Source: Gelidibacter gilvus (GTDB lineage: Bacteria; Bacteroidota; Bacteroidia; Flavobacteriales; Flavobacteriaceae). From it: 64,000 bases of DNA. The position numbers were made by a program, and so were the translations under genes. The stretch spans positions 310,001-374,000 of the forward strand of contig NZ_SDDZ01000002.1 in NCBI RefSeq assembly GCF_004115975.1, in the 5' to 3' direction. The stretch's first letter is position 1, and every line of letters begins with the position of its first letter. Below are positions 5,878 through 51,319 of the stretch, piece by piece. A model generated the notes under the pieces. That model was not told where the DNA came from and ran no database searches. It saw only the letters and a list, made by a program, of their open reading frames with translations.

Positions 5878-5970
5878 ATGCATACTTTACAACACATAAA
5901 AAATGTTTTCATGACCTTTACCTCTTCCGAAGGCAACATTACTTTTAACATGATTACCCTTTGGGGTTAA
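5878..5970 (+). CDS. Possible 30-aa leader peptide upstream of thrA
   Basis: ATG to TAA, 31 codons, begins 18 nt after a -7 promoter box and ends 79 nt before thrA. The peptide holds five Thr (3, 13, 15, 22, 27), three Ile and three Met among 30 residues, with a C-terminal NMITLWG. Thr and Ile enrichment is the mark of translation-sensing thr leaders. I see no run of consecutive Thr codons and no GC-rich terminator with a T-tract after it; only small stems (CTTCCGAAG; TTACCC against GGGTTAA) are visible. It may be a regulatory uORF or chance. Confidence 0.3.
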   Translation: MHTLQHIKNVFMTFTSSEGNITFNMITLWG

Positions 5971-6049
5971 TTGTTATATTTTATCTCGTCCTATATTTTT
6001 CCATTTACTATAATTTTACATTTATTTCTAATCCATCATATCACTAACT

Positions 6050-8494
6050 ATGAACGTATTGAAATTTGGAGGAACCTCAGTCGGTTCCGCAGAAAACATT
6101 AAAAAAGTCATCGCAATTCTCGATAGTTATTCGCAAAAAGAATCTGTTATTTGTGTGGTTTCTGCGGTCGGTGGCATCACTGATAAATTATTGAGGGCAG
6201 GTGAATTTGCTCAACAAAAAAACGAAAGTTATCTTTCTGAATTTAAGGCAATTAAGGAGATTCACCTAAATCTCTTGTCAGAACTTATTCCCATACAAAA
6301 TGACGCTGTAAAAGAATATGTAGAAAGCAAATTGACCATCTTAAAAAGCTTGTTGGATGGCATTTACCTGATCAACGAACTCTCCCCTAAAACATCGGAT
6401 AAATTGGTGAGTTTTGGAGAGCTCCTTTCGTCTTATATTGTTGCAGAAACCATGAAAAGTCAAGGTTTAAATGCCGTTAGAAAAAACAGTCAAGATCTTA
6501 TAGTCACCAATTCCAAATTCACTAAAGCTGAAGTCAATTTTGGGGTTACAAACATGAATATTCGTGAATATTTTAAGAACGCCAATCAAAAAATCACGAT
6601 CCTTCCTGGGTTTATCTCAAAATCTGATTCAGGAGAAATCACTACTTTAGGACGTGGTGGTTCAGACTTTACTGCCGCAATTATTGCAGCTGCACTGAAA
6701 GTTAACCGATTGGAAATTTGGACAGACGTCAGTGGCATGTACACCGCAAACCCCAAACTGGTAAAACAAGCCTACCCTATCGAGAGGTTATCCTATCAAG
6801 AGGCGATGGAATTGTCACATTTTGGAGCTAAAGTCCTTTATCCACCATCGCTTCAGCCGGTTCTCGTTTTAGATATTCCTATCCTTATTAAAAACACAAA
6901 CGATCCCGACGCTCACGGAACGGTCATTACCAGCGACAAAAGCAATGGTTTCTCTAAGGCAGCAAAAGGCATTAGTAATATTAGTAATATCGCTTTATTG
7001 ACCTTGCAGGGCAATGGAATGATTGGCATTCCTGGATTCTCAAAGCGACTTTTTGAAACCTTGGCGCAGGAAAAAATAAATGTCATCTTCATAACGCAAG
7101 CTTCTTCTGAACATTCCATCTGTTTTGGGATTGATGAAAATGATGCCTCTCTTGCAGCTGAAAGCATTAATTTGACCTTCGAAAACGAAATTTCATTACT
7201 AAAAATTGATCCTATTATTGTAGAGAAAGACTTATCGATTGTTGCTTTGGTTGGAGATAATATGAAAAACCACCAGGGTATCAGCGGCAGGATGTTTAGT
7301 GCCTTAGGAAAAAACAATATCAATATTAGAGCTATTGCACAAGGTGCATCAGAAAAGAATATTTCAGCAGTCATTGCCGAAAAAGATGTGAAAAAGGCAT
7401 TAAACACCATTCACGAAAGTTTTTTTGAAGACCAGACCAAGCAGTTAAATGTCTATATCACCGGTGTTGGAAATGTGGGTGAACGTCTAGTAGAACAAAT
7501 TCAACAACAGAAAAAATACTTGAAAGAGCAATTGAAAATCAATTTGAGAGTTATTGGGCTATCCAATTCCAGAACGATGATTTTTGATGAATCCGGACTT
7601 TCCTTAAAATCTTGGAAAGAACAATTGGCGTCTGGAGAAAAAGCGACACTTGAAGGGTTTTTAGAGCGTAACAAGAGTTTTAACTTGCGCAACAGCATTT
7701 TTGTAGATGTTACAGCAAATGAGGAGGTTTCTAAAGTTTATGCCGATTATCTCAGAGAAAGCATTGCCGTTGTGGCCTGTAACAAAATCGCGTGTTCAAG
7801 TACCTTTGAAAACTACAGCAATCTTAAAAGATTATCCGTAAAATATAACGCGCCATTTTTATTTGAAACCAATGTTGGCGCTGGTTTGCCAATTATCGAT
7901 ACCTTGAATCACCTCATTGCTTCAGGTGATAAAATAACCTCCATTCAAGCCGTACTTTCGGGTAGTTTGAACTTTGTGTTCAATAATTTTGATGATACCG
8001 CTAAGTTTCATGATGTCGTTAAACAAGCTCAAAAAGAAGGTTATACAGAACCTGATCCACGAATCGATTTGAGCGGTGTGGATGTTGCTCGTAAAATCTT
8101 GATTTTAGCCCGTGAAAGTGGTACAAAAATGAATTTGGAAGATATTGAAAATGATTCGTTTTTAACCGAAAACAATTTAAAGAGCGATTCTGTTGACGAT
8201 TTCTACAAAACCTTAATTGCTGATGAAGCACATTTCCAAAAGTTATATGCCTCTGCAAAAAAGAACGATTGTCAATTGAAATATGTCGCCGAATTTAATG
8301 GTGAAAATGCAAAAGTTGGTTTAAAGGAAATTCCGAGCGATCATCCATTTTATAATCTGAAAGGAAAAGATAATATTGTCATGTTTTATACACAACGGTA
8401 TCCAGAACAGCCTCTAATCATTAAAGGTGCAGGCGCTGGTGCGGACGTGACTGCTTCAGGGTTGTTTGCGGATATTATTAGGATTGGGAATTAG
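6050..8494 (+). CDS. thrA: Bifunctional aspartate kinase / homoserine dehydrogenase I
   Basis: 814 residues, typical of fused ThrA. It catalyses the first and third steps from aspartate to homoserine. The aspartokinase domain starts with KFGGTSVGS at residues 5-13 and has TLGRGGSDFTA. Two ACT regulatory domains follow (about 310-460). The homoserine dehydrogenase half begins with the NAD(P)-binding ITGVGNVGERL near 467 and includes the catalytic lysine segment FETNVGAGLP and the ...LSGSLNFVFN motif. The ACT domains imply feedback control by threonine. First gene of thrABC; a possible leader ORF precedes it. The start is the ATG directly before the KFGGTS segment. Confidence 0.97.
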   Translation: MNVLKFGGTSVGSAENIKKVIAILDSYSQKESVICVVSAVGGITDKLLRAGEFAQQKNESYLSEFKAIKEIHLNLLSELIPIQNDAVKEYVESKLTILKSLLDGIYLINELSPKTSDKLVSFGELLSSYIVAETMKSQGLNAVRKNSQDLIVTNSKFTKAEVNFGVTNMNIREYFKNANQKITILPGFISKSDSGEITTLGRGGSDFTAAIIAAALKVNRLEIWTDVSGMYTANPKLVKQAYPIERLSYQEAMELSHFGAKVLYPPSLQPVLVLDIPILIKNTNDPDAHGTVITSDKSNGFSKAAKGISNISNIALLTLQGNGMIGIPGFSKRLFETLAQEKINVIFITQASSEHSICFGIDENDASLAAESINLTFENEISLLKIDPIIVEKDLSIVALVGDNMKNHQGISGRMFSALGKNNINIRAIAQGASEKNISAVIAEKDVKKALNTIHESFFEDQTKQLNVYITGVGNVGERLVEQIQQQKKYLKEQLKINLRVIGLSNSRTMIFDESGLSLKSWKEQLASGEKATLEGFLERNKSFNLRNSIFVDVTANEEVSKVYADYLRESIAVVACNKIACSSTFENYSNLKRLSVKYNAPFLFETNVGAGLPIIDTLNHLIASGDKITSIQAVLSGSLNFVFNNFDDTAKFHDVVKQAQKEGYTEPDPRIDLSGVDVARKILILARESGTKMNLEDIENDSFLTENNLKSDSVDDFYKTLIADEAHFQKLYASAKKNDCQLKYVAEFNGENAKVGLKEIPSDHPFYNLKGKDNIVMFYTQRYPEQPLIIKGAGAGADVTASGLFADIIRIGN

Positions 8495-47623: not shown

Positions 47624-48172
47624 TTAGGATAAAGCCGGAACTTTGCCTTTGACACCTTCAAAAAAACTACGCATATACTTAAAATCGGCTTCTAAATCTT
47701 CAGTCGGAAAAAAAGGTTCTGAAATCTTGTTTTGCTTATGTTCAAAATCAAAAGTGAACATAATAATGGGCACATTCGCTTTTTTAGCAATATAATAAAA
47801 ACCCGTTTTCCACTCCACAACTTTCATTCTGGTACCTTCAGGTGACAATGCCAACCTGAACTCTTCCCGAGTTTCAAATAATTTTGCAATGGCCTCTACT
47901 TTGTTTTGTCCTGGACGCCTGTCCAACGGCGCGCCACCAATAGCTTTGAAATAATATTTAAAGGGCCATTTAAATAGTTCCTTTTTTGCTACAAAATTCG
48001 ATTTTATTCCAATAACCTGTCGCATTAAAAGGGCAATGTAAAAATCGTGCCAACTGGTGTGTGGTGCCCCAATGATAACCGCCTTTTTAATGGTGTCTTT
48101 TGACATAGTGACATTACCTGCCAACTGCCAACCTAAAACTTTTTTATATATAAATTTTGATAACCACCCCAT
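47624..48172 (-). CDS. 1-acyl-glycerol-3-phosphate acyltransferase family protein (PlsC-like)
   Basis: 182 residues. The catalytic HxxxxD is HTSWHD near residue 37, and SPEGTR near 108 is the acceptor-binding EGTR motif. Shorter than classical PlsC and without a clear long TM, it belongs to the small Bacteroidota acyltransferase group. It may acylate lysophospholipid or another envelope lipid. One base separates its start codon from the kdnB-like stop, so it belongs to the same operon. Confidence 0.88.
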   Translation of the reverse strand: MGWLSKFIYKKVLGWQLAGNVTMSKDTIKKAVIIGAPHTSWHDFYIALLMRQVIGIKSNFVAKKELFKWPFKYYFKAIGGAPLDRRPGQNKVEAIAKLFETREEFRLALSPEGTRMKVVEWKTGFYYIAKKANVPIIMFTFDFEHKQNKISEPFFPTEDLEADFKYMRSFFEGVKGKVPALS

Positions 48173-48173
48173 C

Positions 48174-49256
48174 TTACATTTTCGCGTATATACTTCTCAG
48201 TTTTTCTCTAGTAGCCGTTTGTTTCCAGTTTTTGCCCAGGGCGTTTTCCCATAAAGGCTCCAACCCTAAAGCCACATCAATCATAATGTCAAATTGATAA
48301 TCTTCAAGTTGTGAACAAATACCCTGAGGAATCTTGATGCCATGAATGTCTTTCATCTTTTTAAATAAGGCCACGCCTTCAGGATAAAACTCCTCTAAGT
48401 GATCAAAAACAATACAGTTGCCTACACCGTGCTTCGTTCCTAAAAGATATCCAAGTCCATAACTCAATGCATGTGCAACGCCAACCTGTGAATAAGCTAT
48501 ACTCATTCCACCATGCCAGGAAGCCATCATCAGTTTATCTTGCATTTCTTCTTGCGTATAGTTACCATCAACAAAAATCTCTACACACAAATCATAAGCT
48601 TTCTCTCCATAACTCTTGCTAAAGGCATTTAAAAAAGTTCCGTTCAATGATTCCACACAATGGATGTAGCAGTCCATTCCTGTATAAAACCACTGATCTT
48701 TAGGAACGCCTTTTGTTAATTCTGGGTCTAAAATAACTTGATCAAACGGAGTATAGTCTGAATTGATGCCCAGTTTTCTTTCAGGTCCTGTCAGCACTGT
48801 AGTTCTGGACACTTCTGCTCCTGTACCTGAGATGGTGGGTACACCAACGTGATAGATGGCCGGTGTTTTTACCAAATCCCATCCTTGGTAATTTTTAGAT
48901 TCGCCAGGATTGGTCAACATGATGGACACGGCTTTAGCCAAGTCTAAAATGGTCCCTCCCCCTATTCCAATGACACCTGATGGTCGGTCTATATGAGATA
49001 AAATAATTTGTTCAACCAATTCATCAACTTGAGATGTTTTTGGTTCTTCATCCACCGAAATAAAAATTAATTGGTCGTCATAGGCCAAAGAAATTCTTGA
49101 GATCAACCACGTATTACCTTTAAAAACGTCATCTACCAAATAAATAAAAGGTGCGTTGACATTTAATCGTTTTGGTGCTATAATCTCACTTAATTGGTTG
49201 AAACTGCCTCGTCCAAAAACCACTCTTGACACCATGGGAAAATTTTTATAAATCAT
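48174..49256 (-). CDS. kdnB: Iron-containing alcohol dehydrogenase, KdnB-like (Kdo 8-oxidase)
   Basis: 360 residues, group III metal-dependent dehydrogenase. NAD-binding GIGGGTILDLAKAVS, PTISGTGAEVSRT and metal-site histidines in HALSYGLGYLLGTKHGVGN. Overall it closely matches my memory of Shewanella KdnB (starts with FGRGSF, shares YQGWDL, NSDYTPFDQ and QWFYTGMDCYIHCVESL). KdnB oxidises the C8 hydroxyl of Kdo, after which KdnA adds an amino group to give Kdo8N. The neighbouring kdsB fits; kdnA is not seen. It overlaps the HAD gene by 4 nt. Confidence 0.85.
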   Translation of the reverse strand: MIYKNFPMVSRVVFGRGSFNQLSEIIAPKRLNVNAPFIYLVDDVFKGNTWLISRISLAYDDQLIFISVDEEPKTSQVDELVEQIILSHIDRPSGVIGIGGGTILDLAKAVSIMLTNPGESKNYQGWDLVKTPAIYHVGVPTISGTGAEVSRTTVLTGPERKLGINSDYTPFDQVILDPELTKGVPKDQWFYTGMDCYIHCVESLNGTFLNAFSKSYGEKAYDLCVEIFVDGNYTQEEMQDKLMMASWHGGMSIAYSQVGVAHALSYGLGYLLGTKHGVGNCIVFDHLEEFYPEGVALFKKMKDIHGIKIPQGICSQLEDYQFDIMIDVALGLEPLWENALGKNWKQTATREKLRSIYAKM

Positions 49257-49984
49257 CTTTTATGTTTATCATTTCTATTTTTGTTCAACATTGGAAGTAA
49301 ATCTACTAAACTATTTATGGTTTCGAATTTCTTGTTGTCCGGCTTGTTGGGAACGACCTGTTCGTGTATCCAAGTAGTATGAAATGGTACATGAATTGCT
49401 CTTGCTTTAATGTTTATTAAAGGTAAAATATCGGATTTTAAAGAATTCCCGATCATTAAAAACTCAGAAGGCTTGATTTCCAAATGGTTCAACAATTTGG
49501 AGTAATTGGCTTCCTGTTTATCACTGACTACTTCAATATGATGGAAATAATCCAACAACCCAGATTTCTTTAACTTGCGTTCCTGATCCAAAAGATCACC
49601 TTTGGTCACAACTATCAATCGGTAATCCTGGGATAAAGTATGTAAAACCTCATTTACACCATCCAAAAGCTCAACAGGTTTATTGAGCATATCCTTTCCG
49701 ATGTTCAGTATGGCGCCAATAGTTTCATTACTGACGGAATTATTGGATAATTCCAAGGCTATTTCAACCATTGACAAAATAAAGCCTTTAATTCCGTATC
49801 CGTAAAAAGGCAAGTTCTCTATTTGTCTTTTAAACAGCTCTTGATCCACCTTATTAGCAGTTTCATAAGCTGCCATCAATTTTGAGAACTCAAGCTCCGC
49901 ATCCCTGAAATAAGTTTCATTGACCCAAAGCGTGTCATCAGCATCAAAACCAATCACCTTTATGTTGGTATAATCTATTTCCAT
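49253..49984 (-). CDS. HAD-family hydrolase in the kdsB-kdnB operon
   Basis: 243 residues. Motif [10 protein letters not shown] holds the nucleophile DxD, motif II is VVTKGD, Lys follows later (SDKQEANY), and the acidic motif IV is [10 protein letters not shown] helical cap (about 25-110) puts it with the YjjG/phosphoglycolate-phosphatase-like subgroup, not with the capless KdsC type. A sugar- or nucleotide-phosphate substrate is likely, and a role in Kdo metabolism is suggested only by its place. Overlaps kdsB by 10 nt and kdnB by 4 nt. Confidence 0.85.
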
Positions 49985-50703
49985 AAACGTATTGCGCGTT
50001 CCAAATCTTCTGGTGTATCTATTTCGACACCTTCTACATGGGTTTCTACCATCTTAATGCGTTTTCCGTATTCTAAATAACGAATGCACTCTATCTTCTC
50101 TGTAGCTTCAATAAATTGCATGGGTAACTTATAAAAATCCAGAAGTGCCTGCTTTCTAAAGGCATAAATACCTTTGTGTTTGAAATAGCGCGCACCTGCT
50201 TCTTTATCTCTTGGATATGGAATTGGACTTCTGGAGAAATAAAGTGCAAAATTATTTTGATCTACAATTACCTTTACGGTATTCGGATTATTGATTTCTT
50301 CCCAATCGTGAATTTCAACCATTAATGATGCCAAATCAATTTCTTTTTGATGGTCGTCTTTAAAAGCATTTAAGACCTTTTCTAAACTTTCTCGTTCGGT
50401 AAAAGGCTCATCGCCTTGCACATTCACTACGATATCGACATCCAGAGCCTCAACAGCTTCTGCAATACGATCGCTTCCTGACTGATGCTCTTTTATGCTC
50501 ATGATGGCTTTGCCACCATTGTTTACGATTTCGTCATAAATAATTTTGCTATCCGTTACCACAAACACATCATCAAAAAGGTTGGTATCAACAGTTGCTT
50601 CATAAGTTCGGAGAATAACGGTTTTCCCTGCTAAATCCTTCATCAATTTGCCTGGGAAACGTGTGGCACTGTAACGCGCCGGAATCATTGAAATTATCTT
50701 CAT
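49975..50703 (-). CDS. kdsB: 3-deoxy-manno-octulosonate cytidylyltransferase
   Basis: 242 residues from the ATG at 50703, placed just before the CTP-binding [17 protein letters not shown] longer open frame adds 41 hydrophobic and basic residues that overlap the DUF4126 gene and do not fit the family. [10 protein letters not shown] and the [11 protein letters not shown] segment are KdsB hallmarks. The enzyme activates Kdo (or Kdo8N) as the CMP-sugar for lipid A core assembly in the cytosol. Confidence 0.95.
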
Positions 50704-50749
50704 AGTTTGGTCAAGGATTTCCTTCCAAAAATAATCCTTTTTAAATAGT

Positions 50750-51319
50750 TTATAGTTTGGAATATTTAATCTTTTTATAAAGTTTGTATATGGCAAACAA
50801 AACAAAAATAACCAAGACAAAAGCAATTATAGGTAGAAATATGGAAAAGATGGCAATAACTAATGATGCACCTGTTTCAATGGTTGACACCAGCGGATTA
50901 CCAAAACCTGCAGTGGAAACCGTTGAGGTCACTCGTGAAGCTCCTGCGGCACTTTTTATGGCGGCGGCTGTTCCTCCGCCGGCTATAATTGCCAATGCCC
51001 AAGTAATGAGAGGATTTAAATCGGCTACAGTAGAAACCATAACCGCTGTACCTGCAATGGTTGCTAATGGGATGGCAATAGTATCAAGCAAATTATCCAC
51101 GAAGGGAATATAATATGCCAATATTTCAATGAGCGTGGCGACGCCTAATGTTATCACTGCAGTCAGGCTACCAATCCATAACCATGATGAATTGAGCTCC
51201 CAAACATCAAAATACGATGCCAAACTGAGCGCGAACAATGGTAGAAAGACCCTAAACCCAACTGATGCGGCCAAACCGATACCGAGACAAATACTAATGA
51301 TGGTTTCTGTCATGATCAC
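50750..51319 (-). CDS. DUF4126 membrane protein
   Basis: 189 residues with about four to five hydrophobic helices. The start [21 protein letters not shown], the [11 protein letters not shown] loop and the small-residue-rich [16 protein letters not shown] are characteristic of DUF4126. A C-terminal helix is followed by a Lys-rich tail. Function unknown. It starts the minus-strand run into kdsB (46-nt gap), but its link to Kdo metabolism is only positional. Confidence 0.85.

Follow-up and report, generated by a model that had tools for sequence, protein, structure and literature searches.

Predicted 8-amino-Kdo synthesis in Gelidibacter gilvus: a kdsB-kdnB operon with its kdnA on another contig

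The closest described system to the locus considered here is the pathway of Shewanella oneidensis to Kdo8N, the 8-amino derivative of 3-deoxy-D-manno-oct-2-ulosonic acid (Kdo), which was reportedly set out by Gattis et al. in 2013 with KdnA, KdnB and KdsB as its enzymes. The reactions of these three proteins are known from S. oneidensis, whose KdsB prefers Kdo8N, and their genes, kdnA, kdnB and kdsB, are presumably adjacent in Shewanella. Our locus lies in genome G000, on Gelidibacter gilvus contig NZ_SDDZ01000002.1, in a stretch of 64,000 nucleotides (nt), hereafter the window, within which all positions are counted, and it comprises kdsB, a gene for a HAD-superfamily phosphatase, kdnB and a gene for a small acyltransferase. 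Working from sequence, we consider it very probable that the locus serves ordinary Kdo8N synthesis, with two of the three enzymes encoded in the operon and the third, KdnA, encoded unlinked in the same genome.

The locus shares with the S. oneidensis pathway its orthologous KdnB and KdnA, the presence of KdsB and, in some relatives, three-gene clusters, but it differs in that kdnA is unlinked in the window genome, in that HAD and acyltransferase genes stand in the operon, and in that KdsB and KdnB are fused in a subclade of relatives. In comparison to Escherichia coli KdsB, which performs standard Kdo activation, the window protein is of the same family and has the same Asp two residues after site 227, whereas site 227 itself is Gly in E. 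coli and Glu in the window. In the proposed route, KdnB would use NAD+ and a bound metal to oxidize Kdo at C8 to the 8-aldehyde, which KdnA, a pyridoxal phosphate enzyme, would convert to the 8-amine; KdsB would then join this Kdo8N to CMP, and the resulting CMP-Kdo8N would be used, presumably by a Kdo transferase, to place Kdo8N onto lipid A.

In the accessible parts of the literature, Kdo8N, whose C8 resonates near 44-45 ppm, is described as a Shewanella hallmark (PMC6357163) and as the linking unit of the genus (PMC3210612), and it is given for Shewanella and for "other bacterial species" that the accessible text does not name (PMC4052302). KdnB from S. oneidensis is listed in the part available of a further source (PMC5125639), while for a flavobacterium, Bizionia argentinensis, the accessible text discusses Kdo and contains no amino-Kdo (PMC9478572). 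Searches of the open-licence literature brought up no report of Kdo8N from any member of the Bacteroidota.

KdnB, the unlinked kdnA and the operon

Judged by its sequence, the window dehydrogenase is a true KdnB. It matches the solved chains 3rf7 (463 bits, E 8e-138) and 5k8c (452 bits, E 1.5e-134), whereas chains of the iron-containing alcohol dehydrogenase (Fe-ADH) family outside the KdnB type reach at most 86 bits (best E 2e-23). The entry 5k8c, which we take to be the S. oneidensis protein, is named Kdo 8-oxidase, and 3rf7, presumably likewise a Shewanella protein, is named only as an iron-containing alcohol dehydrogenase. Identity to 5k8c is 57% for the window KdnB and 52-58% for five Bacteroidota rows (alignment A1). 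Residues D195, H199, H262 and H276 occupy positions that bind the metal in Fe-ADH enzymes, and both solved chains have the same residues there. A tree rooted on an Fe-ADH paralogue from the window genome places both Shewanella chains away from that paralogue and among the Bacteroidota KdnBs, beside those of genomes G119 and G174 (support 95/97). The first-pass annotation of this DNA had called the protein KdnB-like and linked the operon to Kdo; both calls were right, with KdnB beside KdsB and KdnA in the genome, and the phylogenetic check that it had named, whether the dehydrogenase falls outside the KdnB clade, placed the protein within it.

A scan of the window genome for DegT-family proteins gave nine places, of which the six strong ones were taken to an NCBIfam scan, where no KdnA model matched any of them, and four of the six were compared with the PDB. 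One clear KdnA emerged, of 400 amino acids (aa), on a contig other than that of the window (G000:C8:99310-100509). Its match to the solved KdnA 5k8b spans 393 residues and scores 486 bits (E 6.1e-145), against 188 bits (2.9e-54) for the next chain, and in a tree the protein groups with 5k8b, apart from other DegT proteins. Absence of kdnA from the genome is ruled out by this match, and the suggestion that kdnA might lie elsewhere, to be settled by a whole-genome homologue search, is borne out. The adjacency of kdnA, kdnB and kdsB is thus not found in the window genome, a matter of arrangement and not of the defining reaction, and a kdnB with no kdnA beside it gives no reason to assume a new branch.

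Within a few kilobases (kb), kdnA has a ribAB-like gene to one side and recombinase-like genes to the other, all named from reading the sequence. A RibB-like gene lies within about 1.5 kb of kdnA in 10 of 28 loci, so that the neighbourhood is at best partly conserved. The two recombinase-like genes (L093:12225-15163, on the same contig C8) are a few kb from kdnA and near the contig end, and kdnA may adjoin a mobile element.

The features of the operon in the window are as follows.

50750..51319, minus strand: DUF4126 gene (PF13548), starting at GTG 51319 or ATG 51313, with a 46-nt gap to kdsB
49975..50703, minus strand: kdsB, 242 aa, CMP-Kdo (predicted CMP-Kdo8N) cytidylyltransferase (TIGR00466, 193.6 bits, cut-off 155.2)
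50023..50025, minus strand: codon GAA for Glu227 of KdsB, which distinguishes genomes with KdnA from those without
49253..49984, minus strand: HAD-superfamily phosphatase, 243 aa (PF00702)
48174..49256, minus strand: kdnB, predicted Kdo 8-dehydrogenase of the Fe-ADH family, 360 aa (PF00465 and PF25137)
47624..48172, minus strand: small PlsC-type acyltransferase, 182 aa, the last gene of the operon (PF01553)

The open reading frame of kdsB reaches mechanically to TTG 50826, but the ATG at 50703 is most likely its start. As the first-pass annotation had described, the genes overlap or abut: kdsB and HAD overlap by 10 nt, HAD and kdnB by 4 nt, and kdnB is separated from the acyltransferase gene by 1 nt, a spacing from which we infer a single transcript for the four. 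The DUF4126 gene, which lies inside the annotated interval and had been left unnamed, is perhaps part of the same transcript as kdsB.

We compared this arrangement with the best 80 of 586 KdnB loci in species genomes (KdnB 76-85% identical), a set of close kin that is biased towards the window's own arrangement. KdsB, HAD and KdnB occur on one strand and in the same order in all 80, and this order is therefore not due to chance. The acyltransferase lies at most 200 nt away in 78 of the 80 loci, and DUF4126 is upstream in 47. No KdnA-like gene (>250 bits) was found in any of these loci, which span up to 8 kb on each side; the earlier description of the operon as lacking a visible kdnA holds for the operon and for these loci of its near relatives.

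KdnA and KdnB across genomes

In a KdnB-bearing set of 29 genomes (the window genome and 28 with KdnB loci, the genome of locus L013 lying outside the set), KdnA was found in 28, the sole miss being G009, a metagenome-assembled genome. In a phylum sample of 148 genomes, with thresholds of E ≤ 1e-60 for KdnB and E ≤ 1e-80 for KdnA, KdnB was found in 12, KdnA in 11 and both in 10, the exceptions being KdnB alone in G146 and G173 and KdnA alone in G159 (40% identity). Among 298 genomes of Flavobacteriaceae, a family common in the sea, 223 have KdnB and 220 have KdnA, with all 220 contained in the 223; KdnB stands alone in G146, in G250 (a weak match, 5.6e-69) and in G360. Kdo8N is a predicted constituent of flavobacterial lipopolysaccharide (LPS), and on this gene evidence it would be the inner-core sugar in 220 of the 298 sampled genomes, which, if true, changes the view of flavobacterial LPS charge.

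The exception G146 may represent a natural loss. It keeps the gene order RecD-like, DUF4126, KdsB, HAD, KdnB, acyltransferase, and no KdnA was found in it, the best match (4.8e-39) grouping with another DegT protein. The reading frame of its KdnB (L206:6643-7722) is intact, with Gln at 199 and Arg at 262 in place of two aligned metal-ligand His residues, and in the tree the protein falls inside the Flavobacteriaceae rows (88/97), with a long branch of 1.62. Residue 227 of the G146 KdsB is Gly. The G146 KdnB is likely a dead enzyme retained in its operon, and this joint loss suggests that kdnA, kdnB and kdsB work together.

Residue 227 of KdsB

The window KdsB (E 2.3e-43 to E. coli 1vh1) is the only KdsB match at E ≤ 1e-40 in its own genome. 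Across 105 aligned KdsB rows, residue 227 is Glu in 44 and Cys in 2 of the 46 rows from genomes with KdnA, and Gly, Ser, Ala, Pro or Asn in the 59 from genomes without it, G146 included; no other window column has residue sets that are disjoint between the two groups. The two Cys rows represent two divergent lineages, and in the nearest clade (44 rows with KdnA versus 14 without) residue 142 separates the groups as well. These counts and the KdsB tree omit 53 of the 80 near-relative loci (52 that lay outside the KdnA search, and L034, for which KdnA was not found), together with G360 and both KdsBs of G173. A larger set of 99 KdsB rows from genomes with KdnB has Glu227 in 95 and Cys in 2, while 2 are gapped (L017 and L042); the frame of these last two is interrupted, and both give Glu when the motif is read in another frame. 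In four rows set apart from this larger set, residue 227 is Glu in G360, Gly in G146, and Ala and Gly in the two KdsBs of G173.

Residue 227 lies two positions before an Asp that, judging by the offset at which the 2y6p match ends, is expected to correspond to D219 of Aquifex KdsB, a ligand of Mg-A in the accessible part of its description (PMC3149649), which puts residue 227 near the active site. We infer that Glu227 contacts the C8 ammonium of Kdo8N, and KdsB appears to be tuned to the amino sugar through this residue. The pattern of Glu227 across genomes with and without KdnA is a new observation here, and it offers a one-residue test of KdsB specificity.

Several points weigh against this interpretation and against Kdo8N synthesis more generally. 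G360 and G009 carry KdnB and a KdsB with Glu227 and have no KdnA match at the limits used (E ≤ 1e-80 in the family search; best match 6.8e-36), which also speaks against the joint working suggested by G146; assembly gaps are a possible cause, indistinguishable here from real loss. G250 and G173 hold only distant KdnB-like proteins, and G159 has a KdnA-like protein (40%) and, at the threshold applied, no KdnB. In the KdnB tree the branch to the outgroup is very long, several forks are open and the bootstrap has not settled; the deep branching order also disagrees with that of the KdnA tree. Both trees pair G119 and G174 with the Shewanella proteins. Independent changes at residue 227 are few: on the best tree, from which the site itself was left out, Glu changes three times and Glu/Cys five times, and of the two independent pairs on well-supported branches Glu agrees in one (the other shows no difference) and Glu/Cys in both, a number of pairs with which a sign test can reach no significance. 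A Shewanella KdsB sought among plasmids gave no match, and the search of viral contigs brought up just three loci, which carry distant KdnB-like genes. Finally, no biochemistry or LPS analysis of these organisms was found in searches of the open-licence literature.

It could also be argued that KdnA and KdnB serve another amino-ulosonate, in a capsule or O-antigen, and not inner-core Kdo, as the distant KdnB-like and KdnA-like proteins amid sugar-type genes in G159, G173 and viral contigs might indicate. However, the KdnB of the main clade lies beside, or is fused to, KdsB, which in the window genome is the only match at the limit given above, and the KdsB residue pattern tracks KdnA, making this alternative quite unlikely.

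Returning to Kdo8N synthesis, a broader picture can be drawn tentatively, one that we regard as possible but doubtful: residue 227 would act as a switch, with Glu or Cys taking the C8 amine and Gly, Ala or Ser the C8 hydroxyl; KdsB and KdnB would form one body, as in the fused protein of a subclade; most Flavobacteriaceae would have Kdo8N-only LPS and be unable to use plain Kdo; and G146, after losing KdnA and two metal-ligand His of KdnB and after its KdsB had reverted to Gly, would have kept its probably dead KdnB perhaps as a partner of KdsB.

We note separately that the distant KdnB-like or KdnA-like proteins of G173 and G159 (L210, L211 and L214; same phylum, other class) stand amid sugar-type genes, in what may be an analogue of the Kdo8N route for amino-nonulosonates. 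The uncultivated viral contigs L320, L321 and L322 encode a KdnB-like dehydrogenase (~40%) at about 5965-7065, followed by a DegT-like aminotransferase and a cytidylyltransferase-like gene, and L320 and L321 also have a NeuB-like synthase (assigned by similarity to window proteins or by reading); these genes are perhaps a terminal-amino nonulosonate cluster.

The HAD phosphatase and other gene arrangements

Beyond the near relatives, other arrangements occur. A kdnA-kdsB-HAD-kdnB cluster is found in G057 (L207), and kdnA-kdsB-kdnB clusters in G194 and G366, the HAD gene being absent from such operons at L277 and L278; G143 has a kdsB-kdnB pair, and G119 and G174 have kdnA-kdnB pairs. All six long KdnB frames fetched (L269-L274) are KdsB-KdnB fusions with no HAD alongside, KdsB occupying residues 1-242 and KdnB residues 253-609 in L269, and of the 223 KdnB frames in the family sample, at least 24 have the length of such a fusion (611-660 aa).

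The HAD protein itself was found in 30 of the 148 phylum genomes at E ≤ 1e-30, many of them without KdnA or KdnB, and at this limit it was not found in G061, G143 or G173, the first two of which possess both enzymes. Because it is missing from relatives with KdnA and KdnB and present in genomes without them, the HAD protein is a neighbour and not a needed step of the pathway. As a required step it was rejected on the strength of the HAD-free clusters, the fusions, G061 and G143, as well as of its presence in genomes lacking KdnA and KdnB. These data also bear on the proposal that the product of the operon is an oxidized Kdo (8-aldehyde or acid) or some different derivative, formed without amination and with HAD catalysing a new step. 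Another fate for the 8-aldehyde and a new step by HAD had both been raised at first, and neither is supported. The lack of kdnA from all 80 near-relative loci and the invariable place of HAD between kdsB and kdnB there would suit it, but with kdnA in the window genome and in 220 of the 223 family-sample genomes that have KdnB, and with HAD absent from L277, L278, L269-L274, G061 and G143, we hold it to be highly improbable.

Another possibility is that HAD is a Kdo-8-phosphate phosphatase, either supplementing KdsC or standing in for it, and this would account for its position next to kdsB. Its nearest named solved relative, a weak one, is N-acylneuraminate-9-phosphatase (1.5e-6); it adjoins kdsB in G116, a genome without KdnA or KdnB; and G119 has HAD with only a weak KdsC match (5.2e-8). 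On the other hand, HAD gives no match to the KdsC model TIGR01670 at E ≤ 0.01, and the window genome encodes a KdsC on another contig (137.7 bits, cut-off 106.95), its only TIGR01670 match at E ≤ 0.001. A KdsC-family match is present in 147 of the 148 phylum genomes, above the cut-off in 114, and HAD adjoins kdsB in just 7 of the 30 HAD genomes by comparison of coordinates, G116 among them. Overall this role is unlikely, and HAD as the sole Kdo-8-phosphate phosphatase was rejected in view of the separate KdsC and the near-universal KdsC-family match. If the operon serves ordinary Kdo8N synthesis, both the HAD protein and the acyltransferase most probably have roles outside it and are simply neighbours.

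An extra gene stands between HAD and kdnB in 28 of the 80 near-relative loci; it is related to the CatA-like acetyltransferase at L215:8017-8634. The latter matches Pfam CAT and scores 111 bits, short of the 270 bits set as the cut-off for a type A chloramphenicol acetyltransferase, and a related CatA-like gene adjoins HAD-kdsB in G116.

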